Shown here in pieces: positions 25,371 through 63,509 of a stretch of DNA of 64,000 bases (within the stretch, counting starts at the first letter, position 1; each line of letters begins with the position of its first letter). The notes beneath the pieces are model-generated. The model was given only the letters and a program-made list of their open reading frames with translations, searched no databases and was not told the origin of the DNA. Source of the DNA: Thelephora terrestris (taxonomy: Eukaryota > Basidiomycota > Agaricomycetes > Thelephorales > Thelephoraceae); the NCBI GenBank assembly GCA_015956445.1, contig WIUZ02000001.1, positions 496,001-560,000 on the forward strand. The letters run 5' to 3'. The position numbers and the translations under genes are program-made.

Positions 25371-26430
25371 TGAGAATTTGTCATCATCCAACAAAGGGGA
25401 GTGATCCTGGGAGGTACAGGCAGCCCTGTCCAATTGGCGACCAGGATCCCAGAACGCGAGTCCGTCTGAACGCGTTGAGTGCGTTTTTGGTGTGATGGAG
25501 TGAACCGGGTGGGTGGGATCGAAGGCGGGGGAGTTTCTGACGAGAGAGGGGTTTCTGCCTGAAATGCGCATGATTGTCGTGGACTGTGAGTGGATCACGG
25601 GTCGTAGATAATCGACACGTGTTTCAGAGTGGTGCAAGGGGTGGAAGGGCGGCGGATCTGGGTTGGGGGGTGATTCTGTTACCGAGGAAGAAGGGTGAAT
25701 GGTGAGGGCGCAAGGCCAGGAATCCACGCGGCAAGGCCAATATCCACGAACGCAGTTCGGACCGAGGGAGTAGCCCGTTGACCGAATGGAACCGTGCACC
25801 AGGGAAAGTGGGAGCTGGGGAATCCACGTAAGTGCACGGGATGCAGCAAGGATCGCAGAGCTTACCTCGCTCCCCAGGCTCCGAACTGTTTCCCCGGAGT
25901 CGCATCCCATAACGAGAGGAAGGTGGGTGACTGGAGGCCCGTCGGATCTGTTGGATTGCTGGCAAACACAGCAGGAAGCAAGGGAGGAGGGGAATGCGGA
26001 GGGTGGGCGGAAAAGGATAGGATATTTTCCCACGGATTTGATGCCACAAAATTGGGAGAAAGCCGGGAACGCCGCATGGAAAGTCGGGAAGGAAGGGGAA
26101 GGGAAGGGGAAGGGCAGTAGTGACAAGGGGCGGGAGTAAGTTGAGGACGGGATGCGATCAGCAGGAGGGAACGGCGCTATTCCCAACCGCAAGGCACGGC
26201 GCATCACGCGCGCGATCAAGAGAAGCAATCCCAATTAGGAAGGGAGGGCTGGCTCAACCCGACCCGAAAACACGACGGAAAAAATGGGGGAAGTCCCGTT
26301 GGACTGCTGGGGAGCCTGCTAGGAATTTTCGGTCGAGTTTTTTTGACACAAGGTTCCCAGGGGCTGAGTGTCAAGGGGTGACAACATTGTAGGGGATTTT
26401 ACGTTGGACAGTGGTTACCAGTAATGCATC
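25371..26430 (-). repeat. Right terminal inverted repeat of the KDZ transposon
   Basis: Reverse complement of 13210-14330, lacking the 68-bp tandem duplication of the left arm. A minus-strand open frame covers 25236-26234, but differences from the left arm are often amino-acid changing, so it is treated as non-coding. Confidence 0.9.
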
Positions 26431-35300: not shown

Positions 35301-35648
35301 TCGAAGGCATCTCTTCCTATCGGCTTGAACTAGTCGTTCAGCTGAGTGCCGAAGATGGTGACGCCATGTTCGGGGAGGTTCTTGCGAGGAGGGGCCAGCA
35401 CTATGATCTCCGGGATGGACAGTTGATGACCTTCAGGCCTGCCGTAGATAGAGTCGACTTTTGATGGGATTGAGATAGCACTTGTATAGCTCGTTGTGGA
35501 TTCGCTGGGAATAGTACGCTCGTGTGTGTGTTTCGAATGATTGGTGTGAAGGATAAGGAGTGTGAAGCATTCAAAACATAAGAAGTGATGAGAAGAGTTC
35601 AAAGAAAGAGCGTGTTATAAAAAGTTTAAAAATACCATGTTCCTGACA
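32352..35648 (-). mobile_element. Solo LTR, copy A of the long-LTR chromovirus family
   Basis: A 3297-bp unit with ends TGTCAGG..CCTGACA flanked by the perfect 5-bp duplication ACAAC (32347-32351 and 35649-35653). There is no internal region, so it is a solo LTR left by LTR-LTR recombination. In retrotransposon sense it reads on the minus strand, with its TATA box (TATAAG at 32805-32800) directed toward the STAND gene. It carries a copy of the antisense U3 gene (segments from 33725 to about 35464, plus strand) that is an older, diverged and probably decayed version. Clearly older than the full-length copy at 50891-63509. Confidence 0.93.
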
Positions 35649-41257: not shown

Positions 41258-44200
41258 TGTCAGGAACATGGTATTTTTAAACTTTTTATAACACGCTCTT
41301 TCTTCGAACTCTTCTTACCACTTCTTATGTTTTGAATGCTTCACATTCCTTATCCTTCACACCAATCATTCAAAACACACAAACGCGCATACATTCACGG
41401 CAATACGAAACAACCTGGCTATACAAATGCTATACAACGTCCTCAAAAGTCGACTGTATCTACGGCAGGCCTGAAGGTCACCAAACGTCCATCTCGGAGA
41501 TCATAGTGCTGGCCCCTCCTCGCTAGGACCTCTCCGAACATGGCGTCACCATCTTCGGCACTCAGCTGAACGACCAGTTCAAGCCGATAGGAAGAGATGC
41601 CTTCGAGCGGACCGATCAGCCTCCCAGATGTCACCGAACTCTGGAACACCTGATCCCACATCGCCATCACCGGGTGACTGCTCGACAGCACTATCGACGT
41701 AGTCGGCAAGCGACCCTCCGTCTCCCTCATCGGACCCCTGGGTGGGATCCTGGATTGCGAGTCGACGCTGGTGGCGAAGCTGGATCTCCGACTCGACCTG
41801 TCGGTAGGGATGGTTGACCCGATAGCGGAACTCTCGTCCCCTATCTCGACCAGACTGGTCACCATCCGACTCAACTGGACGCGAGTATGGGTAAGCCGAT
41901 GGAGCCATGCGATGAGCAGGACGGCGTCGAGAGCGTTTGCAACGTTGCCCCTTAGTCACCGGACGTACCTCGGCGACCCTCGGAGCATCTTCAGCTCGTT
42001 CAACCTCCATGACCTCATCCTCGATCTTCACCAACTGATGGATCGGCTGCAAGACACAACGCCCACAGTTCTCCTTGTCGGAAGCGGCCAGAGTGGAAGC
42101 CGGACCTGGAGTCGGAACGGGTACCACGTTCTCGATCGGAGGCGTCGCGTAGGATGACGGGTTAGGCGAAGGGAGTACCACCTCGTCAGCGTACTCCAGC
42201 TCGAACGGAACGTCGGCAGTCCCCTGACCAACCAACTTGGGACCCTCCTTACAGTTGCAGGTCTTGTCCTGCAAGGACTCGACCTGCGCCGTCAACACCG
42301 CTACCACGTTCTCGAGTTCTTCGGTCTAGGAAATGTCAGCTTCCATCATTCCAAGCAATGATGAAAGCGGCATTACCTTTTCATCCCTCCTGGCCAACGC
42401 TCCCTTGATGTTGTTGTCCCTAACCTTCAACCCGGCGATCAACTCCTGATGGTTGGCAACCATTGCTTCCAACGCCTCATTCGTCCCCTGCTGGAAGGCG
42501 GCCAAGGTCTCCTTCATCTGAAGACCCTCCGCCGACAGACGAAGGACGTCTGCCTTCGCCTCCTTCACCTCGCGCTCCAATCGTTCAACCTAGGCAGTTT
42601 GATTAGTCGAGAGTCATACTCGAATATTCAAACGGAGAACCTACCTTGCTCTCCCCCTCCCGAACGAGCGACCACAACAACGACGTGGCGGCAGTAGCAT
42701 GGCGGACGGCCCGAGGAACGGTTGCCCCGTGCTCCAACAGGTCCTGGTCGTAGATCCCCCTCTGAAGGGTGTACCAGAGCTCCTTCTTGATCGAATGCTC
42801 CAGCTCCCCGAATCTACCCCTCATCCGGAAGGCTACCTTCTCGGCGATGATTGTACGGACCCAGAGCTCATCGTCCCAGGTCAACCCCATTAAATGAGGC
42901 ATGGTCTCCCTGAGACGTTCGGGGTCCACTTCCGTGACGACCTCCAAGATCTAGAAGCCGTTAGCTGGACATCAACGCCCAAAAGAACGTAACCTCTACC
43001 TAGAGGAAGGCGTTAGTGCGAACACACGAAGCTCTAAGTCTCCCCCATACCTGGTCATCCGTGGTATAGGGAGTCCCAGCCGCACAGGCGTAGGTCTTGC
43101 GAGCGGCGGCACGACGGTCAATGCGAGAAATGGTGGAGATACCATTGGCGACTTTGTAGGTATGGTTGTTGGGGAAGGACATGTTTTGGTAAGATGATGG
43201 GGAAGTTGCTGGTGTTGCTGATCAAGGATGGCTTCAAGAAGACGTCCTTCTTATAGCCTAGATCGGTGATCCTTCACGTGACCTACCTCGACGAACCTCA
43301 TTGGTCCGGGTCACATCAACTTCCGCCCCTGTACCATCATCGTCGGCTTACTACATCAAGCTGACACCTCGGCCCGCGGGACGGCCTTGGAAGAACTTCG
43401 TTCCGGAACGCCTAGAACGCGTGCGCACTAAAAATAGGTCTCAAGACCCTGATGACCCCTTTATGACATCACGAACCCCTTTAACGACCCCTCATGACTT
43501 TACGATTACGATCAACCCTGGACCCTGATCACACACGTGGACAGTCACATCACAGTCTCCTAACCGGAGGAAGGACTTGCCGCTATTCGGAAGCATCGCC
43601 TTAGGATCCTTCTGGTTAGCCCAGCGCATGTGGAGTAGCCGTTAGCGTGAAACGCCGGCGAATCTGTAATTCCTTATGTCCCATGAGTCTAGGCCCTCGC
43701 TCCTCATGTTCGGACGCACGATAAGGTTGCCACTAGTCCGTGATGCTGTTACCGCCTACAGACAACAAGGGATGCTGCATGGTCTCTATCTTTGGCCTCT
43801 CCAAAGGAAGCATCCGAGAAGATTCTCACCTAGCCCTTGGGTGTGATCCCCAGGTACGAACTTTCATGACCCCATGCCCCTCTTTCTTTTAGGACTAGTG
43901 TTATCTTTACCCCTATGTTTCATGCGGACATTCGTTATCTTTTATGCAATCCTTCACACGCTAGTAAGGCCCTTTGTCCTTTATTCTCCCACGCGTCATT
44001 CTTGTTCGCTTCCCTTACTTAGCGTTCACACACTCCTTATCTCCCTTTGTTCGGACTTGATAAGGGTATATTAGGGTATTGACGTCATGGCCACTCCTTT
44101 AGTATAAGTAGCAACTGTGGCTGTATCGTAGTACCTTAGTTTTGTTACCTCAGGAAATCCTCTGCCCTTCTCAGCCCAGTTGCAGTTAAGGACAAGTCAG

Positions 44201-44555
44201 AGTTTCTTGTTTGATCCAAGACATCCCCATCTGCTCTCCCTCCCGCTCTGCGCGTCAACTGCGCCTCGTAACTATAAACTCTCAGCAGTCATATTAGAAC
44301 ACCTCGAGCGTCCAGTCGATCAATTGGTGGAGTCATCAATCCTGTTGTAGGGATCAACCCTTGCTTGTTAAACCGAACGAAGTACGGTTTAGGTTGGGTT
44401 TCTCTTTAGGATTTCGACCTGACTTGTAGTGACCTCGGACAACCTACCGGAAGAATAGAGACGTGATCGTTCTCTCACAAGCTAGTTGGACTAGTGAGTA
44501 CTCTGCGGAGTCGGCTCAGTGCACTGGTAGTTGTTGGGGTAGAGTGGCCCTGACA
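41258..44555 (+). mobile_element. Solo LTR, copy C (opposite orientation)
   Basis: A 3298-bp LTR, retrotransposon sense on the plus strand (TGTCAGGAACATGG start at 41258), flanked by the perfect 5-bp duplication GTTTC (41253-41257 and 44556-44560). No internal region, so it is a solo LTR. The antisense gene lies on the minus strand between 43182 and about 41443. Its sequence is closest to copies E/F in the second coding segment. The last few hundred bases share private variants with copy D. Confidence 0.93.
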
Positions 44556-45139
44556 GTTTCAGCCTAATGTCATGTATGCCAGCCAAGACTAACTTCACCC
44601 AGTTGCAAACATATGACTTGGGTCACAGGACCATAAAGCAAACTGCAGTCCCCTCACTCTGTGCCCAACCATCCGATAAGCCCACGGACGCACATATATA
44701 TCATCAGCAACCCAGCATCATGCTTATCACCCATGTTCAACCACAAACCACTCTCACCCTTTGTTCTGTGCCATCTCAAAGCCTAACCATAACTCTAGCT
44801 CACCCACCCATATTCATCCTTGTGTGGAATATGTTATAAGTCTATAAACCATATGTTTGTAGTCCACTTGCTTGTGGGCCCAAGGAGGTGGATGAACTTG
44901 AGTTGTGGTTTGTCTGTGAGATGGCACAGAACAAAGGGTGAGAGTGGTTTGTGGTTGAACATGGGTGATAAGCATGATGCTGGGTTGCTGATGATATATA
45001 TGTGTGTCCGTGGGCTTATCGGATGGTTGGGCACAGAGTGAGGGGACTGCAGTTTGCTTTATGGTCCTGTGACCCAAGTCATATGTTTGCAACTGGGTGA
45101 AGTTAGTCTTGGCTGGCATACATGACATTAGGCTGAAAC
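44556..45139. repeat. 584-bp palindromic spacer between LTR copies C and D
   Basis: Arms 44556-44777 and 44917-45139 are near-perfect reverse complements. Similarity fades toward the centre. Together with the LTR copies on both sides, in opposite orientation, this forms an inverted repeat spanning several kb. Small open frames on both strands mirror each other and are not considered genes. Confidence 0.9.
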
Positions 45140-48100: not shown

Positions 48101-50830
48101 GGGAAGGGAGTAGTGAGGTAAAGGGGGATATACGGGTATGTAGGGAAGTATAGGGATGCATAGGGAGGGGTAGGGAGGTATAGAGAGTATAGAAATGTCG
48201 CGAAACGTCGCGAAGCATCCCGAGGGAAAGGGACGTAGGGAATGTCGCCGATGAGTACTCCAGAGAATGGAGGCATGTCACCGGTTAGGTTTTTTTCTGA
48301 TTTACTGAGTCCAGCAAACCACGATCAAATTGTCACGTGTTTTTCCAGTTTACCAGACGTGTATTTCCAATTTACTGAAAGAAAACTTGCAGTTTACTGA
48401 CAATGACACGTCCAGGTAAATTTTCGGTTATTTTTCAAATTGACCAATCAGGGATGTCGTCAGTAAACCAGTTTGGTTTTTTTCCAGTTTACTGAGTCCA
48501 GTAAACTGTGATCAAACCACTCAGCAAATTAAAAACATACTGATTGGGCAAGTGGCTCAGTAAACTGCTGGTAAATTTGTTCAGTAAATTGTGAATTTTT
48601 CCGAGGTTTACCTAATGGGGAAACTGTGGTCACATGACCCAGTAAATTGCAGGTAAATTGGCTCAGTAAATTGTGAATTTTCTTTGTGCTTGCCAGACAA
48701 GTATTTCACTAGGTTCTTTTTCCATTTACTTGCAATTTACTCACAGTTTACTGACTCAGTAAACCAACCCTTGCCCCCAGTGTGATGTGACCCGGACCAA
48801 TGAGGTTCGTCAAGGTAGGTCACGTGAAGGATCACCGATCTAGGCTATAAGAAGGACGTCTTCTTGGAGCCATCCTTGATCAGCAACACCAGCAACTTCC
48901 CCATCATCTTACCAACATGTCCACACCTACAAAGTCGCCAATGGCATCTCCACCATCTCTCGCATCAACCGCCGTGCTGCCGCTCGCAAGACCTACGCCT
49001 GTGTGGCGGGGACTCCCTATACCACTGATGACCAGGTATGGGAGAGACCTAGAGCTTCGTGGGTTTGCACTAACACCTCCCTCTAGGTAGAGGTCACGTT
49101 CTTTCGGCGTTGATGTCAAACTAATGGCTTCTAGATCTTGGAGGTCGTCACGGAAGTGGACGCCGAACGTCTCAGGGAGACGATCCCTCATCTGATGGGG
49201 TTGACCTGGGATGACAAGCTTTGGGTTCGTTCCATAATCGCCGAGAAGGTGAACTTCCAGATGAGGGGTAGGTTTGGGGAATTGGAGCATCCGATCAAGA
49301 AGGAGCTCTGGTATACCCTGCAAAGGGGAATCTACGATCAGGATCTGTTGGAGCATGGAGCGACTGTTCCTCGGGCTGTCTGCCACGCCACCGCTTCCAC
49401 CAGTCTCTTGTGGTCGCTCGTTCGAGAGGGAGAAAGCCGGGTAGGTTCTCTGTTTGGATATTTGAGTATGACTCTCGATTAACCAAACGGCCTAGGTGGA
49501 ACGATTTGGAGCGCGAGGTGAAGGAGGCGAAGGCAGACGTCCTTTGTCTGTCGGCGGAGGGTCTTCTGATGAAGGAGACTCTGGCCGCCTTCCAGCAAGG
49601 GACGAACAAAGCGTTGGAGGCAATGGTCGCCAACCATCAGGAGTTGATCGCCGGATTGAAGGTTAGAGATAACAACATTAAGGGTGCGCTGGCCAGGAGG
49701 GATGAAAAGGTAGCTTTCCTCATCTCGAAGACGAAATGAGGGAGGCTGACACTTCTTCTAGACTGAAGAACTCGAAAACGTGGTGGCCGTGTTGACGGCG
49801 CAGGTTGAGTCCTTGCAGGACAAGACCTGCAACTGCAAGGAGGGTCCTGTGTTGGTTGGTCAGGGGACAGCCGATGTTCCGTTCGAGTTGGAGTACGCCG
49901 ACGAGGTGGTACTCCCATCGCCTAACCCGTCGTCCTATGCTACACCTCCGATCGAGAACGCAGTTCCCGTTCCGACTCCCGCTCCGGCTTCTACTCTGGC
50001 CGCATCCGACAAGGAGAACTGTGGGCGCTGCGTTTTGCAGCTGATCGGTCGGTTGGTCCAGATCGAGGATGAGGTCATGGAAGTTTACCGAGCCGAAGAT
50101 GCTCCGCGGGTCGCCGAGGTACGTCCGGTGACTAAGGGGCAATGCTGCAAACGCTCTCGACGCCGTCCTGCCCATCGTATGACCGCATCGGCTAATCCTT
50201 ACCCTCAACCAGTTGAGTCGGATGGTGACCAGTCTGGTCGAGGTGAGGAGCGAGGATTCCGATATCGGGTCCACCGTCCATACCGACAGGTCGAGTCAGA
50301 GATCCAACTCCGACACCAGCTTCACCTCGCAAGACAGGATCCCACCCAGGGGTCCGACGAGGGAGACGGAGGGTCGCTTGATGACTACGTCGATAGTGCT
50401 GCCGAGCAGTCACCCGGTGATGGAGATGTGGGACCAGGTGTTCCGCAGTTTGGTGACATCTGGGAGGCTGATTGGTCCGCTCGAAGGCATCTCTTCCTAT
50501 CAGCTTGAACTAGTCGTTCAGCTGAGCGCCGAAGACGGTGACGCCATGTTTGGGGAGGTCCTTGCAAGAAGGGGCCAGCACTACGATCTCCGGGATGGAC
50601 AGTTGATGACCTTTAGGCCTGCGGTAGATAGAGTCGATTTCTGATGGGACGATGATAGCACTTTGTATAGCCATGTTGTTTCGATTCGCTGGGAATAGTA
50701 CGCGCGTGTGTGTTTTGGAATGATTGGTGTGAAGGATAAAGAACGTGAAGCATTCAAACATAAGAAATGGTAAGAAGAGTTCGAAGAAAGAGCATGTTAT
50801 AAAAAGTTTAAAAATACCATGTTCCTGACA
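45140..50830 (-). mobile_element. LTR copy D, interrupted by a CACTA-like element
   Basis: Begins TGTCAGG at 45140 and ends CCTGACA at 50830. Subtracting the 2378-bp insertion at 46405-48782 and its duplicated TGA leaves about 3.3 kb, a full LTR. The flanking 5-mers (GAAAC left, TTGAC right) do not match, unlike those of copies A, C and the full element. The left flank was probably replaced by the inverted duplication shared with copy C. The antisense gene copy runs from about 48917 to 50644 on the plus strand and is partly altered at its start. Confidence 0.88.
46405..48782. mobile_element. Non-autonomous CACTA-like element with nested palindromes
   Basis: Ends read CACTGGGGGCAAGGGTTGG and its complement. 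A 3-bp target duplication TGA lies at 46402-46404 and 48783-48785, as judged against uninterrupted LTR copies. CACTR ends plus a 3-bp duplication are typical of the CACTA (CMC/EnSpm) superfamily. The arms (about 46405-46938 and 48287-48782) are full of CAGTAAACTG-type subterminal repeats. A second palindrome is centred near 47085, and the roughly 1-kb core (47240-48290) is purine-rich with GGGAACGTT-like tandem repeats and a poly-G run. No transposase is encoded. Confidence 0.85.
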
Positions 50831-50890: not shown

Positions 50891-52195
50891 TGTCAGGGCC
50901 ACTCTACCCCAACAACTACCAGTGCACTGAGCCGACTCCGCAGAGTACTCACTAGTCCAACTAGCTTGTGAGAGAACGATCACGTCTCTATTCTTCCGGT
51001 AGGTTGTCCGAGGTCACTACAAGTCAGGTCGAAATCCTAAAGAGAAACCCAACCTAAACCGTACTTCGTTCGGTTTAACAAGCAAGGGTTGATCCCTACA
51101 ACAGGATTTGATGACTCCACCAGTTGATCGACTGGACGCTCGAGGTGTTCTAATATGAACGCTGGGGTTCTATAGTTACGAGGCGCAGTTGACGCGCAGA
51201 GCGGGAGGGAGAGCAGATGGGGGATGTCTTGGATCAAACAAGAAACTCTGACTTGTCCTTAACTGCAACTGGGCTGAGAAGGGCAGAGGATTTCCTGAGG
51301 TAACAAAACTAAGGTACTACGATACAGCCACAGTTGCTACTTATACTAAAGGAGTGGCCATGACGTCAATACCCTAATATACCCTTATCAAGTCCAGAAC
51401 AAAGGGAGATAAGGAGTGTGAGAACGCTAAGTAAGGGAAGCGAACAAAGGTGACGCGTGGGAGAATAAAGGACAAAGGGCCTTACTAGCGTGTGAAGGAT
51501 TGCATAAAAGATAACGAATGTCCGCATGAAACATAGGGGTAAAGATAACACTAGTCCTAAAAGAAAAAGGGGCATGGGGTCGTGAAAGTTCGTACCTGGG
51601 GATCACACCCAAGGGTCAGGTGGCAATCTCCCTTTACATAGTTGTACCAGCGGATTCGGGAGTAGAGCCATGCAAACATCCCTTGTTGTCTGTAGGCGGT
51701 AACAGCATCACGGACTAGTGGCAACCTCAACGTACGTCCGAACATGAGGAGGTCGGGCCTAGACTCATGGGACATGAGGGATTACAGATTCGCCGGCGTT
51801 TCACGCTAACGGCTACTCCACATTCGCTGGGCTAAACAAAAGGAGTCTAAGGCACTCCTTCCGAATAACGGCGATTCCTTCCTCCGGTTAGGAGACTGTG
51901 ATGTGACTGTCCACGTGTGTGATCAGGGTCCAGGGTTGATCGTAATCGTAAAGTCATGAGGGGTCGTAAAAGGGGTTCGTGATGTCATAAAGGGGTCATC
52001 AGGGTCTTGAGACCTATTTTTAGTGCGCGCGCGTTCTAGGCGTTCCGGAACGAAGTTCTTCCAAGGCCGTCCCGCGGGCCGAGGTGTCAGCTTGATGTAG
52101 TAAGCCAACGATGATGGTACAGGGGTGGAAGTTGATGTGACCCGGACCAATGAGGTTCGTCGAGGTAGGTCACGTGAAGGATCACCGATCTAGGC

Positions 52196-52268
52196 TATAA
52201 GAAGGACGTCTTCTTGGAGCCATCCTTGATCAGCAACACCAACAACTTCCCCATCATCTTACCAAAAC
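52196..52268 (+). promoter_or_regulatory. Core promoter and leader of the antisense LTR gene
   Basis: A TATAAG box at 52196-52201 lies 68-73 bp upstream of the ATG at 52269. The leader between them is rich in CA and CT (CAGCAACACCAACAAC) and is kept in copies A, B, D, E and F, and in C on the other strand. A TATA box, short leader and ATG are the arrangement expected for a fungal RNA polymerase II gene. Confidence 0.6.
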
Positions 52269-54008
52269 ATGTCCTTCCCCAACAACCATACCTACAAAGT
52301 CGCCAATGGTATCTCCACCATTTCTCGCATTGACCGTCGTGCCGCCGCTCGCAAGACCTACGCCTGTGCGGCTGGGACTCCCTATACCACGGATGACCAG
52401 GTATGGGGGAGACTTAGAGCTTCGTGTGTTCGCACTAACGCCTTCCTCTAGGTAGAGGTTACGTTCTTTTGGGCGTTGATGTCCAGCTAACGGCTTCTAG
52501 ATCTTGGAGGTCGTCACGGAAGTGGACCCCGAACGTCTCAGGGAGACCATGCCTCATTTAATGGGGTTGACCTGGGACGATGAGCTCTGGGTCCGTACAA
52601 TCATCGCCGAGAAGGTAGCCTTCCGGATGAGGGGTAGATTCGGGGAGCTGGAGCATTCGATCAAGAAGGAGCTCTGGTACACCCTTCAGAGGGGGATCTA
52701 CGACCAGGACCTGTTGGAGCACGGGGCAACCGTTCCTCGGGCCGTCCGCCATGCTACTGCCGCCACGTCGTTGTTGTGGTCGCTCGTTCGGGAGGGGGAG
52801 AGCAAGGTAGGTTCTCCGTTTGAATATTCGAGTATGACTCTCGACTAATCAAACTGCCTAGGTTGAACGATTGGAGCGTGAGGTGAAAGAGGCGAAGGCA
52901 GACGTCCTTCGTCTGTCAGCGGAGGGTCTTCAAATGAAGGAGACCTTGGCTGCCTTCCAGCAGGGGACGAACGAGGCGTTGGAGGCAATGGTCGCCAACC
53001 ATCAAGAGTTGATCGCTGGGTTGAAGGTTCGGGACAACAACATCAAGGGGGCGTTGGCCAGGAGGGATGAAAAGGTAATGCTGCTTTCATCATTGCTTAA
53101 GATGATGAAAGCTGACATTTCCTAGACCGAAGAACTCGAGAACGTGGTGGCCGTGTTGACAGCGCAGGTCGAGTCCTTGCAGGACAAGACCTGTAACTGC
53201 AAGGAGGGTCCCAAATTGGTTGGTCAGGGGACCGCCGATGTTCCGTTCGAGTTGGAGTACGCCGACGAGGTGGTACTCCCTTCTCCTAACCCGTCGTCCT
53301 ATGCGACGCCTCCGATCGAGAACTCGGTTCCCGTTCCGACGCCGGCTCCGGCTTCCACCTTGGCCGCTTCTGACAAGGAGAACTGTGGGCGCTGCGTCTT
53401 GCAGCCGATCCATCAGTTGGTGAAGATCGAGGATGAGGTCATGGAGGTTGACCGAGCCGAAGATGCTCCGAGGGTCGCCGAGGTACGTCCGGTGACTAAG
53501 GGGCAACGTTGCAAACGCTCTCGACGCCGTCCTGCTCATCGCATGGCTCCATCGGCTAATCCCTATCCTCGACCAGTTGAGTCGGATGGTGACCAGTCTG
53601 GTCGAGGTGGAGGACGAGAGTTCCGCTATCGGGTCCACCGTCCCTACCGACAGGTCGAGTCGGAGATCCAGCTTCGCCACCAGCTTCGACTCGCAAGACA
53701 GGATCCCACCCAGGGGTCCGACGAGGGAGACGGAGGGTCGCTTGCCGACTACGTCGATAGTGCTGTCGAGCAGTCACCCGGTGATGGCGATGTGGGACCA
53801 GGTGTTCCAGAGTTCGGTGACATCTGGGAGGCTGATCGGTCCGCTCGAAGGAGTCTCTTCCTATCGGCTTGAACTAGTCGTTCAGCTGAGTGCCGAAGAT
53901 GGTGACGCCATGTTCGGGGAGGTCCTAGCGAGGAGGGGCCAGCACTACGATCTCCGGGATGGACGTTTGGTGACCTTCAGGCCTGCCGTAGATAGAGTCG
54001 ACTTTTGA
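52269..54008 (+). CDS. Antisense gene in the LTR U3 (3' LTR copy), coiled-coil protein of unknown function
   Basis: Open segments with GT..AG borders are 52269-52400, 52501-52806, 52862-53074 and from 53126. Each is in phase with the next and the intervals are 51-100 bp. The protein begins M-S-F-P-N-N-H-T-Y-K-V. The second segment is a compact helical region (L-T-W-D-D-E-L-W-V, K-K-E-L-W-Y-T-L-Q-R-G). The third and early fourth are coiled-coil (heptad-like L/E/K/A), followed by C-N-C-K, a Pro-rich linker, C-G-R-C and a basic stretch (K-R-S-R-R-R). The fourth segment stops at 53872. A conserved alternative frame runs on to 54008 (E-L-V-V-Q-L-S-A-E-D-G-D), so the 3' end may involve another intron. 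Not related to gag, pol or envelope proteins I know. It may be a captured host gene or regulator. Confidence 0.6.
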
Positions 54009-54191
54009 GGACGTAGGATAGCACTTGTATAGCTCGTTGTGGATTCGCTGGGAATAGTACGCGCGTGTGTGTGTTTCGAATGATTGGTGTGAAGGATAAG
54101 GAGTGTGAAGCATTCAAAACATAAGAAGTGGTAAGAAGAGTTCGAAGAAAGAGCGTGTTATAAAAAGTTTAAAAATACCATGTTCCTGACA

Positions 54192-54206
54192 TTATCCTCT
54201 TCCTGG
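54192..54206 (-). promoter_or_regulatory. Polypurine tract next to the 3' LTR
   Basis: On the minus strand AGGAAGAGGATAA directly precedes the TG start of the 3' LTR. This is the expected position and composition of the plus-strand primer of reverse transcription. Confidence 0.7.
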
Positions 54207-54211
54207 ATTGA

Positions 54212-57200
54212 CTAGTCCCTAGTCAATGATCCAATAGGCCATTTTTGAACGTCGGTATGAATTGTCATGGGCCGATGATCTAAAAGGCCTATCCTCTTCC
54301 TACCGCGTTTCTTCCTGGTGGTAACGGGTTTGCCTGACATTGTGCCATCAGGTAGTCGTCGTGGTGCGCCTGGGAACTGCTTGTAGAATTCAGCAATTAG
54401 TTCCGGGGAATTCTCGAGGTTGTCTTCATCTTCCCAAGAATTTTCGGTGTCCGGCCAGCCTAACCACTTGACGAGGTATTTGAGGTTACCATGTAAGAAC
54501 TTGGCATCGAGGATCTTCTCTACTTCCCATTCTGGTTCGCCTTCGATGATATCAGGAGGTGGACGAGGATGATTGGGGTTAAGAGGATCTTCATGATAGG
54601 GGAATATCTTGGAGACATTCCAGACTGAATGAACGTTCTTCCAATAAAGGGGTAGCTTGAGTCGATAAGCATGTGTGCCAATTTTCTCGGTAATCTCAAA
54701 AGGACCAGAGTATCGCTCTGATAGCTTTCGAGAAGGACGGTTCAAAGCTAGGTCTGAATTGTCCAAGAGGACCTTGTCTCCAACATTGAATTCGGGGGTC
54801 TTGTTCCGATGACGATCGTAGAACTTCTTCATATCTTCTGCCGCTTTAGTCAAAGACTCTTCCGTTTGTTTCTGCACTTCGTGAAGGTGAGATACAAAGT
54901 CTTCGACTGACTCGATGGGGGATTGAACTCGAGGAAGGGAACCAATGTGAGGGTGATAACCGTAATTCGCATAGAAAGGCGTAGTCTTGAGACCAGAATG
55001 ATATCGGTTATTGAGAGCGAATTCGATAACCGGAATCCAATCAACCCAATTGTCTTGATGGTAGGATATGACTGTGCGAAGGGCCTGTTCGACTTCTTGG
55101 TTGGTTCGTTCCGATTGTCCATCGGTCTGTGGATGATAAGCAGTAGACAGAGCAAGTTCCACACCTAGTTGTTTGCAAATCTCCCGGAAGGATCGTGAGG
55201 ACATTTGAGGACCTCGATCGGTGATGATCTTCTTGGAGGTACCATGACGTTTCCAAACGTTCTCCAGGTATAACTTGGCAAATCCACTAGTATCAAGGGT
55301 ATCAACGGTGGGGGCGACGTGTTTCATCTTGCCTCGTTTATCGGTATAGGTAACGACCGAATTGTAGCCTTGGCAAGGAGGAAGACCTGTGATCAGATCG
55401 GTGGTGACGACTTCCCAAAACCCTGGTGTAACGTCAATAGGTTTGAGGAGTCCATGGGGCTTCTGATTTCGGTTCTTCTGAGTTTGGCATACGTGGCAGT
55501 TCTGAACTCGTTCCTTGATTTCTGTCCGCATCAGTGGCCAATAGAAGTCTCTCTGTATGACTTCTAGACTGCCTTTGATTCCGGGATGAGCTGCAGGTCC
55601 TAAAGCGTGCAACTGCTGGAATACTTCTGAGCGTAGGAGGGATGGAACGTAGATCTTGCCACGATAAGTCCATAGTTCGCCTAGTAAAACCCAACCGTTG
55701 GGTAGACCGTCAATTTCGGAAGACAGTTGACTTTCAGTCATAGTGTTGAATCCTTGGATAAGTGGATCCTGTGATTGAGCGATGGCAATTTCTTTTCCAA
55801 AGTTTCGCTCGTTGAGGGTTTCAGTGATGACCGAATTGATCTTCTGTGCTTCGAAGTTGTCTTTGAAGAGGGAAGGAGGTAGGAGGATTTGTTCTTCGTC
55901 GGGCACATCCTTTGGGACGTGGTCTGCGCGACGAGAGAGATGGTCAGGGACAGATGATTGTCTGCCTGGTCGATAACGAAATTCGAAATAATAGTTGGCC
56001 AAGATCTGTGACCAACGTGCCTGTCGCTTGGACAGTTTTCGTTTCGTTTTGAAGTACTGAAGGTTGTTGTGATCGTTAAGGATGGTGATGGGGAATTTGG
56101 TTCCCATAAGGAAGTGATGGAAAGCTTCCAGTGCGCGGATAATAGATAGGAGTTCTCGGTCGTGAGTGTCGTAACGCGTCTCCGGATCTGTGAAACCTTG
56201 AGAAAGGCAGCCAATTGGTCGCCATTTTCCTTCGTCATCTTGTTGTGACAAAACAGCTCCCCAGGCATAACCTGAAGCGTCTGTTTCGAGAATGAACTGT
56301 TTCTCGTTGTCTGGATGGAGGAGAAAGGCTTCATGAAGGAGAAGGTCCTTCAACTTTTGGTAGGCGTCTTGTTGAGGGGTTTCCCATTTCCAGGGAGCGT
56401 CTTTTCGTAAGAGGTCGTTGAGGGGTCGTGCAATGATGGAGAAGCCAGGGATGAAACGACGGTAGTAGCTCATGATGCCTAAGTAGGCTCGTAGCTCGGA
56501 AACGGTAGTGGGTATCGGCCAATCTGTAATTCCTGCGAGTTTGACAGGGTCTGGACGGATTCCTTTGCCCGAGATATAATGTCCTAAATAAGGAATCTCT
56601 TTCTGCATGATAACACACTTTTCCGGTTTAAGGGATAGTTTGTGTTCTCGACAGAGTTGGAAGATTTCTTTAAGAACAGAGAGATGAAATTCTTCAGGGC
56701 TGAGGAGTTTCCGTGGATCGTAGGAGGTTCCGATGCCTATGTCGTCGATGAAGGTTCCCGTATCGCCTCGTCGTATCTGAACAATGAAGATAGAGTCCAT
56801 CATGGTCTGGAAAGTGGCAGGAGCATTGCACTGTCCAAACGTCATGACGAGGGATTCGAAGAGTCCTCGGTTGGTGGTGAACGCAGTTTTCCATTCGTCG
56901 CCTTCGCGCATTCGGACATTGTAGTATCCAGAGCAAATGTCGAGGGCAGAGAAGTACAGACAGCCTTTCCATTTCTGGATAAGCTCGTCAATACGAGGAA
57001 GGGGGTAGGCGTTCTTTTTGGTGATGTCATTGAGTCTTCGGTAATCGATAACCATTCGTTTCTTGCCATCCTTCTTATTGATAAAGAAGACGGGGGATGC
57101 CAAGGGAGACTCTGAACGACGGATTCGACCATTTGCGAGGTTTTCTTCGATGAAGATATCGAGTTCCTTTTGTTCGTCGTAGGAAAGGGGATAGGTGTGT

Positions 57201-58030
57201 GGTTTCCAAAGCTGTGATTCCCAATCGGGTACTAGCTCGATCTTGTGATCCCATTTTCGGTGTGGGGGTAACTCTTGATAGGTCATTTCTTCGAATACAT
57301 CCGCGTACGCCTTGAGTGGTCCTTTTCGAATGTCTTCGATGGTAAGGACTTTCTTGTTTTTCAAGTCGTCTATAGCCCAACGCATAGCAGCGTTTTCTTT
57401 GGCATTGATAGAGTGAGCGATGCGATTGATATCGAATTGGGAGGAGTATTCCGTGATAACCGAAGCGTAGTCAAGTGCAGAGGGTAGAACGTCGGATAGA
57501 GATTGATGAGCGATGCATGAGGAGGGACATCTGGTGAACAAGACTTGTCCTGTTCGCCAATCGATTTCCGGATTGTGGGTTCGTAACCATGTCATACCGA
57601 CAATCATAGTCTTGGTGCCTATGTCGGTAACAAGGAACCATTCGGTAGAAATGTGTCCTTTGAAACTAAGGGTAAGCTTTGTCTGATGGGTAATGGTGGT
57701 GGCGTTGAACGTGTCGTCTGCATTGATGGCATAGATGGGGGTAGTGAGCTTTCGAGTGGAGAGGGCATGATCTTGAACAAATGAGCGTGAAATGTAGGTG
57801 GCGGTTGCGCCAGAATCAAGGAGGGCTTCGATGTCGTAAATTTCGTCAGATGAAACTGCGATCTGCAGTTTGATCATGGGGAATAGTCGTGAAAGTCGTG
57901 ACGATGTTCTGTTGACAACTTTTTGGTTTTCGAGAGCGGCGAGGGGATGCAAAGAGAGTGGGAAAGCAGATTCGATTCGCTGCTTAAGGGATGCTAAAAG
58001 TACATGTGATTCTGGAAAAGAGGGGAGCAT
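54212..58030 (-). CDS. pol: Chromovirus pol: protease, RT, RNase H, integrase, chromodomain
   Basis: A minus-strand open frame of 1272 codons ends just before the polypurine tract. In order: protease with D-S-G-A near 70-73; reverse transcriptase with F-I-D-D-I-G near 427 (in place of the more usual Y-L-D-D); RNase H with L-E-T-D-A-S-G-Y-A-W-G-A; integrase with H-P-G-I-K-G, C-H-V-C and the DDE core (T-T-D-L-I-T-G-L-P, T-D-R-G-P-Q and Q-S-E-R-T-N); and a C-terminal chromodomain near 1163-1220 (W-E-V-E-K-I-L-D ... L-V-K-W-L-G-W-P-D-T-E-N-S-W-E). The chromodomain places it among chromoviruses. It looks whole. Confidence 0.95.
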   Translation of the reverse strand: MLPSFPESHVLLASLKQRIESAFPLSLHPLAALENQKVVNRTSSRLSRLFPMIKLQIAVSSDEIYDIEALLDSGATATYISRSFVQDHALSTRKLTTPIYAINADDTFNATTITHQTKLTLSFKGHISTEWFLVTDIGTKTMIVGMTWLRTHNPEIDWRTGQVLFTRCPSSCIAHQSLSDVLPSALDYASVITEYSSQFDINRIAHSINAKENAAMRWAIDDLKNKKVLTIEDIRKGPLKAYADVFEEMTYQELPPHRKWDHKIELVPDWESQLWKPHTYPLSYDEQKELDIFIEENLANGRIRRSESPLASPVFFINKKDGKKRMVIDYRRLNDITKKNAYPLPRIDELIQKWKGCLYFSALDICSGYYNVRMREGDEWKTAFTTNRGLFESLVMTFGQCNAPATFQTMMDSIFIVQIRRGDTGTFIDDIGIGTSYDPRKLLSPEEFHLSVLKEIFQLCREHKLSLKPEKCVIMQKEIPYLGHYISGKGIRPDPVKLAGITDWPIPTTVSELRAYLGIMSYYRRFIPGFSIIARPLNDLLRKDAPWKWETPQQDAYQKLKDLLLHEAFLLHPDNEKQFILETDASGYAWGAVLSQQDDEGKWRPIGCLSQGFTDPETRYDTHDRELLSIIRALEAFHHFLMGTKFPITILNDHNNLQYFKTKRKLSKRQARWSQILANYYFEFRYRPGRQSSVPDHLSRRADHVPKDVPDEEQILLPPSLFKDNFEAQKINSVITETLNERNFGKEIAIAQSQDPLIQGFNTMTESQLSSEIDGLPNGWVLLGELWTYRGKIYVPSLLRSEVFQQLHALGPAAHPGIKGSLEVIQRDFYWPLMRTEIKERVQNCHVCQTQKNRNQKPHGLLKPIDVTPGFWEVVTTDLITGLPPCQGYNSVVTYTDKRGKMKHVAPTVDTLDTSGFAKLYLENVWKRHGTSKKIITDRGPQMSSRSFREICKQLGVELALSTAYHPQTDGQSERTNQEVEQALRTVISYHQDNWVDWIPVIEFALNNRYHSGLKTTPFYANYGYHPHIGSLPRVQSPIESVEDFVSHLHEVQKQTEESLTKAAEDMKKFYDRHRNKTPEFNVGDKVLLDNSDLALNRPSRKLSERYSGPFEITEKIGTHAYRLKLPLYWKNVHSVWNVSKIFPYHEDPLNPNHPRPPPDIIEGEPEWEVEKILDAKFLHGNLKYLVKWLGWPDTENSWEDEDNLENSPELIAEFYKQFPGAPRRLPDGTMSGKPVTTRKKRGRKRIGLLDHRPMTIHTDVQKWPIGSLTRD

Positions 58031-58095
58031 AGGGGTATCGTCCGCAATCTGAGAAAAATCAAGACTCGCCGGTGTTGTCTGTCCGGTTTGTCCAT

Positions 58096-59550
58096 CTAAA
58101 AAGACTCCTGGTCTTCTTGTCCCATATCTGGTCCATAATTTGAGGCTCCTGGGATCGAGCCAAACTGTTCTTCTTCCAAGTCAATAAGATTTTCTTCTTC
58201 TTCTGCTTCTTCTTCGTTGTCAAACACTCCTGCTTCTTCGAATGCTGCCAAGGGATCTTCCAATTCGTATTCATCGTTCCCTTCCTGTCCAAAACCTTGG
58301 ATGCCATAGATGTATTCTAGAGCGTGCTCTAGTTGTTGAACATGGGTAGAGTCCAACTGTCGAATGTTGGCCGTGCAATTCCTAGCGTAATGGCCAGGTT
58401 GGTTACAAGCGTAACAAATGACCTTTCGAGGAGGGGGTTTGGATCCAGAGGGCTTGGAGGGATTCGGTTTCTTCGAGGAAGATGACGGCTTGAGGTTTCC
58501 ACCAGTAGGATAAGGAGCTAGACGAGGGTGTGCGGTTCTAACAGGAGGTTTGGACTGCGGTCGACGTAGAATGACTCGGGGTTGTTGGCGCATGGCGTCG
58601 ACTTGCATAGGTCCATAACCTTTGACATTAGAAGGTTGATAGTTTTGGTGTTGGGTGTTCTTTCCAAAACTATTTCCGTATTCGTGCCTGTCATATTCCC
58701 TAGTCGAGTCTAGCTGTTCTTGCATTTGAATCAACGCGTCCCTCCACTCATCGTAAGTAGTAGGAGGTCTTTCGCGCATAAGGAGTTGCGTGCGGAAGGT
58801 TGGAAACGTGTTTTGCTTCAAATGGAAGAAGGCCTGTGGTTTGGTGATATCAACCGCTTGTCGTCTGAAGTCTTCGAACGCGTCGTAGAAGGCTCGGCAT
58901 TTTTGACCTTTGTTTTGCTTATAGGCCATCATCCTTCGATGGAAGTATTGGGGAGCGTTTTGTATTCCGTATAGCTTCAGGAATTGTGCGGTGAAAGCAT
59001 CCCAATTATCGAAGTAATGAGGTTTGACGTTTCCAGCGGTACTGGTGGCCAAAGCGTTGCGAACATTCTGTGCCCATTGCTTGGTTTTATTGCACTTGCT
59101 GAGGAGGTTAAGGGTGACAAGAATTCGATTCTTCGTGTACCTCATTGCTTTAGGCTTCGTTTTGAAGTAAGCGGCAAGTCGGTCCAAAAAGGGTTGTGCG
59201 TCCGTTTCTGCTCCAGAAAACTCTTCAGGCATGGGAAAGTCTTTAATGTCTTCAACTCCAGGTTCCAACGGAAACGACTCATAGTCGACGTTAGCAGTAG
59301 GGGTGGATAGGATAGGGTTGGTAACTGTCTGAATCCGTTGAGGAGGAGTGATAGCAGTAAGGAGGGCATTGAAGTTAGCTTGGGTAGCTAATGGTGCGGC
59401 CTGTGCAGCTGTAAGCTGTTGGTTCAACGCTTGGTTTTGTGCTTGAAGCTGGGTTTGTAAGGCTGCCGATTGTACCAAGTAGCGTTGCAGATCAGTTGCA
59501 TCTGCTACGTTATAGGTATCATTTCCCAAGGTAACGTTGTTGACTGCCAT
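58096..59550 (-). CDS. gag: Chromovirus gag with CCHC zinc knuckle
   Basis: A minus-strand open frame of 484 codons. A Gln-rich coiled N-terminus (Q-L-Q-A-Q-N-Q-A-L-N-Q-Q) is followed by a capsid-like helical region (F-L-D-R-L-A-A-Y-F-K, W-D-A-F-T-A-Q-F, Y-D-A-F-E-D-F-R-R-Q-A). A zinc knuckle C-Y-A-C-x4-H-x4-C lies near 381-394, and the C-terminus is acidic. It ends 66 bp before the first codon of the long pol frame. The arrangement is that of a separate gag followed by pol, as in many fungal Gypsy elements. It looks whole. Confidence 0.93.
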   Translation of the reverse strand: MAVNNVTLGNDTYNVADATDLQRYLVQSAALQTQLQAQNQALNQQLTAAQAAPLATQANFNALLTAITPPQRIQTVTNPILSTPTANVDYESFPLEPGVEDIKDFPMPEEFSGAETDAQPFLDRLAAYFKTKPKAMRYTKNRILVTLNLLSKCNKTKQWAQNVRNALATSTAGNVKPHYFDNWDAFTAQFLKLYGIQNAPQYFHRRMMAYKQNKGQKCRAFYDAFEDFRRQAVDITKPQAFFHLKQNTFPTFRTQLLMRERPPTTYDEWRDALIQMQEQLDSTREYDRHEYGNSFGKNTQHQNYQPSNVKGYGPMQVDAMRQQPRVILRRPQSKPPVRTAHPRLAPYPTGGNLKPSSSSKKPNPSKPSGSKPPPRKVICYACNQPGHYARNCTANIRQLDSTHVQQLEHALEYIYGIQGFGQEGNDEYELEDPLAAFEEAGVFDNEEEAEEEENLIDLEEEQFGSIPGASNYGPDMGQEDQESF

Positions 59551-60208
59551 GACTATTGGAGGTGTCTGAAGAAGTGGTACAGGTAGAGGGCTTGGCGCTG
59601 TCGGTGTAGGAGGTCGTGAAGCAATTGGAGATTCTGGAGAACGAGGAAGATTTGGAGAAGTAGAAGGAAATACCGGGGAGGAATGGTGAGACGAGCGAGG
59701 AGATTGTTGAGAGACTGGGGTGACTCTTCGAAGAGCGTCTTCGTAGACGGAGTGATCTGAAGAGGCCGGGGTAACAGGCCTAGGCTCTAGTGGTTCGTCG
59801 TCGTCAAGGAAACCTCCAGGTAGATCTGAAAGTTGTGAAGAAGAGGGGAGAAGAGCGAGTTGTCGTGGGACTGGGGTGTTAAGAGGGGACTGAGAAGTAG
59901 GAGTTGATTGAAAGGAGGGGATGCGAGGGGTGAAACGAGATAAAAGAGTTGAGCTGTTTGAAGCGAGAGTAGCACGGTACGCTCGAGCTTCAGCTGGAGA
60001 TGAGAGACGTTGTAAAGAGGGTTGAGAGGGTGAAGGCTGTGTACGACGCCTTTGAGGGGTGTCTTCTGTAGACGAATCTGATTCCTCTCCTGAGACAGGG
60101 GGCCGAAGTCTTCTTCTGTTAGACGAAATGGTTGTCCGTCTTTAAGCAACAGTGAGAGCTTCGCGATGTGGTGGGTGAACAAGGTACCGGCTGGTAGTTT
60201 TGTTACTC
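59551..60208 (-). other. Leader of the full-length chromovirus with a short pre-gag frame
   Basis: Lies between the 5' LTR and gag. The sequence just after the LTR on the minus strand is GAGTAACAAAACTACCAGCC, the primer-binding position; I cannot assign a tRNA. A 131-codon frame at 60182-59787 begins close to the LTR (M-F-T-H-H-I-A-K-L). It has no known domain and may be chance or a short pre-gag ORF. Confidence 0.5.
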
Positions 60209-63200
60209 TGTCAGGGCCACTCTACCCCAACAACTACCAGTGCACTGAGCCGACTCCGCAGAGTACTCACTAGTCCAACTAGCTTGTGAGAGAACGATCA
60301 CGTCTCTATTCTTCCGGTAGGTTGTCCGAGGTCACTACAAGTCAGGTCGAAATCCTAAAGAGAAACCCAACCTAAACCGTACTTCGTTCGGTTTAACAAG
60401 CAAGGGTTGATCCCTACAACAGGATTTGATGACTCCACCAGTTGATCGACTGGACGCTCGAGGTGTTCTAATATGAACGCTGGGGTTCTATAGTTACGAG
60501 GCGCAGTTGACGCGCAGAGCGGGAGGGAGAGCAGATGGGGGATGTCTTGGATCAAACAAGAAACTCTGACTTGTCCTTAACTGCAACTGGGCTGAGAAGG
60601 GCAGAGGATTTCCTGAGGTAACAAAACTAAGGTACTACGATACAGCCACAGTTGCTACTTATACTAAAGGAGTGGCCATGACGTCAATACCCTAATATAC
60701 CCTTATCAAGTCCAGAACAAAGGGAGATAAGGAGTGTGAGAATGCTAAGTAAGGGAAGCGAACAAAGGTGACGCGTGGGAGAATAAAGGACAAAGGGCCT
60801 TACTAGCGTGTGAAGGATTGCATAAAAGATAACGAATGTCCGCATGAAACATAGGGGTAAAGATAACACTAGTCCTAAAAGAAAAAGGGGCATGGGGTCG
60901 TGAAAGTTCGTACCTGGGGATCACACCCAAGGGTCAGGTGGCAATCTCCCTTTACATAGTTGTACCAGCGGATTCGGGAGTAGAGCCATGCAAACATCCC
61001 TTGTTGTCTGTAGGCGGTAACAGCATCACGGACTAGTGGCAACCTCAACGTACGTCCGAACATGAGGAGGTCGGGCCTAGACTCATGGGACATGAGGGAT
61101 TACAGATTCGCCGGCGTTTCACGCTAACGGCTACTCCACATTCGCTGGGCTAAACAAAAGGAGTCTAAGGCACTCCTTCCGAATAACGGCGATTCCTTCC
61201 TCCGGTTAGGAGACTGTGATGTGACTGTCCACGTGTGTGATCAGGGTCCAGGGTTGATCGTAATCGTAAAGTCATGAGGGGTCGTAAAAGGGGTTCGTGA
61301 TGTCATAAAGGGGTCATCAGGGTCTTGAGACCTATTTTTAGTGCGCGCGCGTTCTAGGCGTTCCGGAACGAAGTTCTTCCAAGGCCGTCCCGCGGGCCGA
61401 GGTGTCAGCTTGATGTAGTAAGCCAACGATGATGGTACAGGGGTGGAAGTTGATGTGACCCGGACCAATGAGGTTCGTCGAGGTAGGTCACGTGAAGGAT
61501 CACCGATCTAGGCTATAAGAAGGACGTCTTCTTGGAGCCATCCTTGATCAGCAACACCAACAACTTCCCCATCATCTTACCAAAACATGTCCTTCCCCAA
61601 CAACCATACCTACAAAGTCGCCAATGGTATCTCCACCATTTCTCGCATTGACCGTCGTGCCGCCGCTCGCAAGACCTACGCCTGTGCGGCTGGGACTCCC
61701 TATACCACGGATGACCAGGTATGGGGGAGACTTAGAGCTTCGTGTGTTCGCACTAACGCCTTCCTCTAGGTAGAGGTTACGTTCTTTTGGGCGTTGATGT
61801 CCAGCTAACGGCTTCTAGATCTTGGAGGTCGTCACGGAAGTGGACCCCGAACGTCTCAGGGAGACCATGCCTCATTTAATGGGGTTGACCTGGGACGATG
61901 AGCTCTGGGTCCGTACAATCATCGCCGAGAAGGTAGCCTTCCGGATGAGGGGTAGATTCGGGGAGCTGGAGCATTCGATCAAGAAGGAGCTCTGGTACAC
62001 CCTTCAGAGGGGGATCTACGACCAGGACCTGTTGGAGCACGGGGCAACCGTTCCTCGGGCCGTCCGCCATGCTACTGCCGCCACGTCGTTGTTGTGGTCG
62101 CTCGTTCGGGAGGGGGAGAGCAAGGTAGGTTCTCCGTTTGAATATTCGAGTATGACTCTCGACTAATCAAACTGCCTAGGTTGAACGATTGGAGCGTGAG
62201 GTGAAAGAGGCGAAGGCAGACGTCCTTCGTCTGTCAGCGGAGGGTCTTCAAATGAAGGAGACCTTGGCTGCCTTCCAGCAGGGGACGAACGAGGCGTTGG
62301 AGGCAATGGTCGCCAACCATCAAGAGTTGATCGCTGGGTTGAAGGTTCGGGACAACAACATCAAGGGGGCGTTGGCCAGGAGGGATGAAAAGGTAATGCT
62401 GCTTTCATCATTGCTTAAGATGATGAAAGCTGACATTTCCTAGACCGAAGAACTCGAGAACGTGGTGGCCGTGTTGACAGCGCAGGTCGAGTCCTTGCAG
62501 GACAAGACCTGTAACTGCAAGGAGGGTCCCAAATTGGTTGGTCAGGGGACCGCCGATGTTCCGTTCGAGTTGGAGTACGCCGACGAGGTGGTACTCCCTT
62601 CTCCTAACCCGTCGTCCTATGCGACGCCTCCGATCGAGAACTCGGTTCCCGTTCCGACACCGGCTCCGGCTTCCACCTTGGCCGCTTCTGACAAGGAGAA
62701 CTGTGGGCGCTGCGTCTTGCAGCCGATCCATCAGTTGGTGAAGATCGAGGATGAGGTCATGGAGGTTGACCGAGCCGAAGATGCTCCGAGGGTCGCCGAG
62801 GTACGTCCGGTGACTAAGGGGCAACGTTGCAAACGCTCTCGACGCCGTCCTGCTCATCGCATGGCTCCATCGGCTAATCCCTATCCTCGACCAGTTGAGT
62901 CGGATGGTGACCAGTCTGGTCGAGGTGGAGGACGAGAGTTCCGCTATCGGGTCCACCGTCCCTACCGACAGGTCGAGTCGGAGATCCAGCTTCGCCACCA
63001 GCTTCGACTCGCAAGACAGGATCCCACCCAGGGGTCCGACGAGGGAGACGGAGGGTCGCTTGCCGACTACGTCGATAGTGCTGTCGAGCAGTCACCCGGT
63101 GATGGCGATGTGGGACCAGGTGTTCCAGAGTTCGGTGACATCTGGGAGGCTGATCGGTCCGCTCGAAGGAGTCTCTTCCTATCGGCTTGAACTAGTCGTT

Positions 63201-63509
63201 CAGCTGAGTGCCGAAGATGGTGACGCCATGTTCGGGGAGGTCCTAGCGAGGAGGGGCCAGCACTACGATCTCCGGGATGGACGTTTGGTGACCTTCAGGC
63301 CTGCCGTAGATAGAGTCGACTTTTGAGGACGTAGGATAGCACTTGTATAGCTCGTTGTGGATTCGCTGGGAATAGTACGCGCGTGTGTGTGTTTCGAATG
63401 ATTGGTGTGAAGGATAAGGAGTGTGAAGCATTCAAAACATAAGAAGTGGTAAGAAGAGTTCGAAGAAAGAGCGTGTTATAAAAAGTTTAAAAATACCATG
63501 TTCCTGACA
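60209..63509 (-). repeat. 5' LTR (copy F) of the full-length chromovirus
   Basis: Co-linear with copy E at a constant offset of 9318 bp and almost identical to it. The TATA box for the genomic transcript is TATAAG on the minus strand at 60663-60658. Right target-site duplication GATTA at 63510-63514. Confidence 0.95.
61587..63326 (+). CDS. Antisense gene in the LTR U3 (5' LTR copy)
   Basis: Second, almost identical copy of the gene at 52269-54008: open segments 61587-61718, 61819-62124, 62180-62392 and from 62444, and the TATAAG box at 61514-61519. One amino acid difference was noticed in an overlapping frame and none in the main frame. Because it lies in the 5' LTR it points away from the element's body, into flanking DNA, whereas the 3' LTR copy points into the element. 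Confidence 0.6.

Follow-up and report, generated by a model that had tools for sequence, protein, structure and literature searches.

Thelephora terrestris is an ectomycorrhizal basidiomycete with a 40.6-Mb genome, of which we analysed one window of 64,000 nucleotides (G000:C1:496001-560000). It is described as a Thelephorales genome in a mycorrhizal set (PMC7550596). The window contains a full-length Ty3/Gypsy chromovirus on the minus strand (50891-63509), flanked by the 5-bp target duplication GATTA. Its two 3301-bp LTRs differ at two positions (51425 and 53341) and have termini of the TG...CA type (TGTCAGG...CCTGACA). The domain order is that of a chromovirus, with RT and RNase H ahead of the integrase and the chromodomain at the integrase end. 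Within the LTR, on the plus strand and antisense to the minus-strand gag-pol, lies a multi-exon gene. The features are listed in Table 1.

Table 1. Features of the element, its solo relatives and the antisense LTR gene (window coordinates)
Feature	Position	Strand	Remarks
Solo LTR	32352..35648	-	duplication ACAAC; intact spliced-form gene on +, one stop in retained-intron frame
Solo LTR	41258..44555	+	5-bp duplication GAAAC in gene orientation; intact gene on -
Truncated, more diverged LTR	48779..50830	-	gene damaged
3' LTR of full-length element	50891..54191	-	3301 bp, pair of 60209-63509
Predicted sense promoter	51300..51345	-	TATA 51345; RNA start with 12-nt self-primer 51300-51311
Putative LTR-gene promoter	52147..52201	+	CCAAT 52147-52151, CACGTG 52172-52177, TATAAG 52196-52201
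Exon 1	52269..52400	+	
Intron 1	52401..52500	+	
Exon 2	52501..52806	+	encodes N-terminal domain without recognised fold
Intron 2	52807..52861	+	
Exon 3	52862..53074	+	heptad-rich, probable coiled coil (crude heptad count only)
Intron 3	53075..53125	+	
Exon 4	53126..53482	+	CNC and CGRC cysteine motifs
Intron 4	53483..53576	+	spliced out for one predicted product; coding (Arg-rich patch, PAHRM motif) if retained
Exon 5 of spliced product	53577..54008	+	TGA 54006-54008
Stretch open in two frames	53577..53872	+	296 nt; spliced frame and retained-intron frame (stop 53872)
Polypurine tract ahead of 3' LTR	54192..54204	-	by eye
pol	54212..58030	-	protease, RT, RNase H, integrase, chromodomain
gag	58096..59550	-	Retrotrans_gag barely over cut-off; CCHC zinc knuckle
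Primer binding site	60191..60208	-	complementary to predicted 5' end of element's own RNA
5' LTR of full-length element	60209..63509	-	second gene copy, exons spanning 61587-63326

Elsewhere in the window, a minisatellite array with 35-bp spacing extends from 38288 to about 40800 (61-63 copies in register, per reference), and its long open frames are a by-product of the repeat. A 1642-aa polyprotein ORF (8419-13347, minus strand) and an ORF with a CCHC-like motif (26371-28635, minus strand) are presumably a second Gypsy-like polyprotein and a gag-like gene, respectively. Open frames at 16490-19244 (plus strand) resemble what we take to be pieces of a KDZ/Zisupton-type transposase, and the minus-strand ORF at 30865-32274, presumably a STAND/NLR-like NTPase, lies 77 bp from the left end of the solo LTR at 32352. 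Two LTR parts lie head to head at 43871-45824, with 938-nt arms that are 97% complementary and 78 nt between them.

The primer binding site is complementary over 12 nt to position 2881 of the sense-strand LTR, 34 nt beyond the sense TATA, a match length reached by none of 300 base shuffles. Self-priming from the 5' end of an element's own RNA is a feature of Tf1/sushi elements, which the 12-nt match resembles, the RNA start here being a predicted one. The sense TATA at 51345 and the self-primer match place this predicted start near 51311, beyond the gene. U3 would thus span about 2880 bp and hold the whole antisense gene, in agreement with the initial annotation, which had read a gene with its own TATA box on the opposite strand in the U3 of these LTRs.

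The gene has a TATAAG box at 52196-52201, an ATG at 52269 and five open exons, each with a whole number of codons (phase 0), up to the stop at 54008. The four introns (100, 55, 51 and 94 nt) all have GT/AG ends. The phase-matched multi-exon layout first proposed is therefore retained, whereas the count of four segments gives way to five coding exons. Upstream, CCAAT, CACGTG and TATAAG are what we take to be promoter motifs. Mismatches to the commonest base amount to about 0.9% in this putative promoter when the copies are compared, and to 0.3-1.0% in the least variable LTR bins (51191-51390 and 51991-52290), compared with 3-8% in the gene bins. The public Thelephora terrestris protein set holds models of nearly the same layout, such as P0002 (481 aa), which is 96% identical to our 479-aa model over the full length and has two additional residues at intron 1. 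Public models imply a 6-nt micro-exon (GTAGAG, 52452-52457) within intron 1 in some copies; this is uncertain, as the one-intron and micro-exon versions are indistinguishable here. From frames and splice sites, we infer that the antisense gene is transcribed and spliced.

Selection was assessed in an alignment of 47 LTR copies of this genome, with a fragment (L048) and duplicate places (L001-L003, L006 and L008) left out; L052 is left out of all statements. Because the copies had been ranked by the similarity of their exon-2 protein before they were chosen, exon 2 cannot count as unbiased evidence; the remaining exons are less affected. The whole five-exon coding sequence is uninterrupted in 45 of the 47 copies, and the GT/AG ends of all four introns are kept in every copy. 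Apart from the truncated end of L013, the exons contain one distinct frame-breaking indel (in w48779), compared with 83 in 1561 nt of flanking LTR in the same 47 rows; two further frame-breaking indels near exon 5 lie outside the exon and are taken as just past the stop. Counts on 45 copies omit w48779 and L013, which are damaged or cut.

In the 45 copies, the fractions of variable sites at codon positions 1, 2 and 3 are 0.21/0.11/0.80 in exon 1, 0.27/0.14/0.76 in exon 2, 0.20/0.13/0.78 in exon 3 and 0.26/0.23/0.71 in exon 4. The third-position excess has Fisher P values between 1e-12 and 5e-21. The same reading of the 5' part of the LTR (1378 nt) gives 0.29/0.29/0.31, with no such excess. An omega-like ratio, which takes its mutation spectrum from the noncoding LTR and is given as a range over the number of copies required to share a change, is 0.02-0.15, 0.09-0.19, 0.01-0.11 and 0.09-0.27 for exons 1 to 4, respectively; noncoding windows read as frames have a mean of 1.03 (range 0.66-1.53). 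Moreover, the third-position periodicity persists with 42 representatives more than 2% apart. The excess of silent over amino-acid changes, on which the initial annotation had made its reading depend, is thus present, with changes concentrated at third codon positions and omega-like values of 0.01-0.27 over exons 1-4. The gene is almost certainly real and under selection, and, at the level of genomic alignments, the conserved exon frames and splice sites show that it is translated and kept by purifying selection.

Intron 4 itself appears to be coding. It has no indels among the aligned copies. Read in the exon-4 frame, 22 of 31 third positions vary, against 16 of 63 other sites (P = 2.9e-5), with an omega-like ratio of 0.11-0.17, suggesting that it codes when retained. 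At the end of exon 5 (53873-54005), the spliced frame shows variation at 29 of 45 third positions against 24 of 88 other sites (P = 3.9e-5) and an omega-like ratio of 0.15-0.30, suggesting that the spliced form codes as well. Together, the two results make two products likely: reading unspliced through intron 4 ends at 53872 and the spliced reading at 54008, and there are very probably two products, with 296 nt open in both frames. The retained-intron frame is open in 42 of 47 copies and has a stop in the other five. Within the doubly read stretch of this family (family 1), the spliced frame is unconstrained (omega-like 0.91-1.28) and the retained frame weakly constrained (0.51-0.71).

A related gene is found in a second chromovirus family. 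Three more pol copies are 61-63% identical to family 1 at the chromodomain end, and a homologous antisense gene adjoins pol in all three. The family-2 LTR, 2932 bp in L065, includes the gene. The products of the two families are 34% identical over 277 aa (E = 1e-31; hhalign probability 99.3%), and a layout like that of the family-1 gene is seen in the public models P0072 (51 members, 493 aa) and P0074. The family-2 counterpart of intron 4 has its donor, GTGCGT, at the corresponding position. Substitution counts for this family use 18 of 23 aligned rows, L066, L074, L077, L081 and L082 having been dropped for low identity or interruption. In the 18 rows the optional intron appears coding, with variation at 23 of 35 third positions against 14 of 70 other sites (P = 5.8e-6). 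Of the 20 rows that span the doubly read stretch, 14 keep the retained frame open and 18 the spliced frame. Under an assumed mutation spectrum, changes that alter both proteins there number 19 against 32.2 expected, 3 against 14.0 when present in two or more copies, and 1 against 7.7 when present in three or more. The stretch is also less variable (85/363, 0.23) than the 3' flank (60/155, 0.39; P = 3.5e-4, or 0.009 and 0.015 with stricter counts), although this low variability alone is weak support for double coding because a 50-nt intron of this family varies less (0.18). The retained tails of both families share a GQR...PAHRM stretch, scored as high by 2 of 500 shuffles. The simplest reading of these comparisons is that the gene was present before the two families separated and has changed more rapidly than pol. 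The presence in U3 of a multi-exon protein gene on the antisense strand, the central observation made initially, is thus borne out by the signs of selection, the intact splice sites and the homologue in a second family, on stronger evidence than was first claimed.

The heptad-rich segment of the product begins at about residue 134. The spliced tail is Ser/Thr-rich with a conserved end; the retained tail is Arg-rich and then acidic, its first 75 residues holding 19 Lys/Arg and 7 Asp/Glu and the rest 3 Lys/Arg and 12 Asp/Glu. The CNC and CGRC motifs of exon 4 and the Arg-rich patch of retained intron 4 are the small Cys motifs and basic patch noticed at the outset. No Pfam family scored above cut-off against the product, and profile searches of Pfam, NCBIfam and PDB gave matches that were below cut-off or not significant, mostly to coiled coils. 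The Pfam search gave no bZIP family at E <= 0.1, and the transposase 28 family was absent among its matches. The product shows no resemblance to gag (hhalign probability 0.1%), which, with the Pfam result, agrees with the first impression of a protein unlike gag. The first protein search, in which the best 8000 candidates were scored, gave 71 clusters with 257 member sequences, every name being Thelephora terrestris. Five public models (P0001, P0003, P0023, P0068 and P0071) fuse the LTR gene, or in P0001 a repeat of its last exon, to other sequence; we propose that they are annotation errors or read-through at insertion sites.

The gene core promoter occurs at 406 places in the genome (two mismatches allowed; 0 for the reversed control). 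Matches to the pol 3' end number 12, comprising eight of family 1, three of family 2 and one weak match (C34, 33%). A gene-bearing LTR comes next in all eight family-1 cases, judged from 1.5 kb of following sequence, which covers the gene from about residue 117 on. Among 36 LTRs with both flanks, 33 are solo, being bounded by perfect 5-bp duplications and lacking element-internal sequence in the flanks covered; one of the remaining three is the 3' LTR of a full-length element and two show neither feature. Family 2 repeats this solo-LTR excess, its gene having at least 150 scored exon-2 matches (568 candidates) in its own genome against three pol copies. With the gene placed inside the LTR, every insertion brings in two copies, and what remains as a solo LTR still contains the complete gene and its promoter; the second copy in the 5' LTR and the intact genes of solo LTRs agree with the dosage first deduced. 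The LTR segment 51625-51908 (approximately LTR positions 735-1018) has no match in some copies, indicating at least two LTR subfamilies. In the noncoding parts of 45 copies, CpG sites show C to T and G to A changes about 2-3 times as often as other sites do, as expected if the copies are methylated.

The LTR copies have a median pairwise distance of 6.5%, and the nearest relatives of the solo copy L010 are 94-95% identical to it (among 40 scored). In the 45 copies, which are mostly solo, indels found in a single copy number 32 over about 1446 nt of noncoding LTR and one, which preserves the frame, within the coding sequence. Private changes would be expected to create 5.3 stops in exons 1-4 and create none, and the private base changes are still biased towards silent ones (omega 0.45). 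This intactness may reflect retention copy by copy or differences that predate insertion in many active lineages. The diverged copies L051, L053 and L054 have stops or shifts and a longer exon 3 with a different intron-3 start, and they keep the third-position bias relative to the reference.

Taken together, we favour, with moderate confidence, the explanation that this chromovirus carries its own antisense protein gene in U3, which yields two products that serve as an accessory regulator. Transcription of the gene from the promoter at 52147-52201 would run away from the sense promoter of the element (TATA 51345, minus strand), so that the LTR would hold two promoters back to back, pointing apart. 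The introns would survive retrotransposition because only their complement is present in the genomic RNA. With intron 4 removed from some messages and kept in others, the gene would give two proteins that share the N-terminal domain, the probable coiled coil and the Cys motifs and differ in their tails. Both might work in trans, as accessory factors that regulate the element's transcription, its chromatin or the fate of its cDNA; the shared part and the charge of the retained tail would suit a dimeric nuclear regulator, by analogy with HBZ or Grande gene23. That the products regulate the element is a tentative proposal, with slightly less than an even chance, and it is based on analogy because the product has no known fold or domain.

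Several other explanations were weighed. That composition alone produced open frames in young copies is virtually inconceivable: choosing copies by exon-2 protein similarity favours good ones, but the third-position excess is specific to the predicted frames, is absent from the 1378 nt of the 5' part, and holds both with the 42 separated representatives and against L051, L053 and L054. The second frame could also belong to an independent ORF further downstream, with a Met near 53586, that is translated from an unspliced message through leaky or internal initiation; the invariant early Met in 16 public proteins (LSRM) and the apparently protein-coding nature of all of intron 4 are consistent with this. 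We regard this as improbable, since the intron-4 GT/AG ends are kept in 47 of 47 copies (although the GT also belongs to coding sequence), family 2 has its GTGCGT donor at the corresponding position, and splicing of this intron, to varying acceptors, is predicted in most aligned public models as well as in P0072 and P0074 of family 2.

If antisense RNA or protein restrained the element, many solo LTRs would mean a high dose of inhibitor, as the 406 promoter copies against eight pol ends and the complementarity of the antisense RNA to the 3' part of the genomic RNA might suggest; however, an RNA effect needs no purifying selection on protein sequence, and an element should be only weakly selected to restrain itself, so we consider such copy-number control unlikely. 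It is rather unlikely, too, that the selected unit is the gene-bearing LTR itself, hundreds of solo LTRs acting jointly in trans through a working, alternatively spliced and doubly read gene and its promoter, with the enzymes supplied by a handful of full-length elements; the scarcity of private indels in the coding part and the silent bias of private base changes would fit this reading. Finally, selection would be on the host if the LTR had captured a gene of the fungus, or if the LTR gene had been domesticated to serve it. The mostly intact state of the sampled solo copies and the public models that join the gene to other exons would fit, but more diverged copies are damaged, the gene occupies the same place in two element families, as expected of an element gene, and no homologue is named from another species: all 74 clusters among the best candidates of word-based searches, in a database that may lack other Thelephorales, are from Thelephora terrestris. 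The capture suggested initially thus gains no positive support, even if a host ancestor would still be compatible with these data, and we hold the host reading to be quite improbable.

The accessory gene of the element, as we prefer to read it, is conserved across two element families and apparently has two overlapping products under selection. Its several hundred copies in a mycorrhizal fungus make its function directly testable. In the open-licence literature, no multi-exon antisense gene inside an LTR was found by title or abstract start, consistent with the earlier statement that no precedent was known for such a gene in U3.

Known systems share some of its features. MMTV sag is a protein gene in the U3 of an LTR, but in sense orientation, whereas the gene here is antisense. 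Transcripts of HTLV-1 HBZ and the other HTLV antisense proteins are described as beginning in the LTR, and the protein as nuclear and feeding back on sense transcription (PMC3185765). The likeness to HBZ is that of an antisense gene with its start in the LTR, which here is read from frames and splice sites; HBZ, however, is a bZIP factor, unlike the product here as judged at the E-value cut-off above. Most of the HBZ coding part lies outside the LTR. In the account of Retrosat2, RIRE3 and RIRE8, LTRs of about 3 kb or more accompany an extra gene, ORF0, that evolves faster than pol, but ORF0 is located upstream of the gag-pol ORF and not inside the LTR (PMC3485330).

The closest parallels are the antisense additional ORFs of LTR retrotransposons, which are described for maize Grande (gene23), rice RIRE2, Silene Retand (ORF4) and fungal Boty (brtn) as present in many copies per family, located between pol and the 3' LTR and without an assigned function; for Grande gene23, an own promoter and a nuclear protein are reported (PMC7264820). 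As in these four elements, an antisense accessory gene is present here in many copies. In contrast to them as so described, it lies wholly in U3 rather than between pol and the 3' LTR, occurs twice per element, persists in solo LTRs, and has several introns and a doubly read stretch. Compared by descriptions, we place it as a variant among antisense accessory genes, outside any named family.
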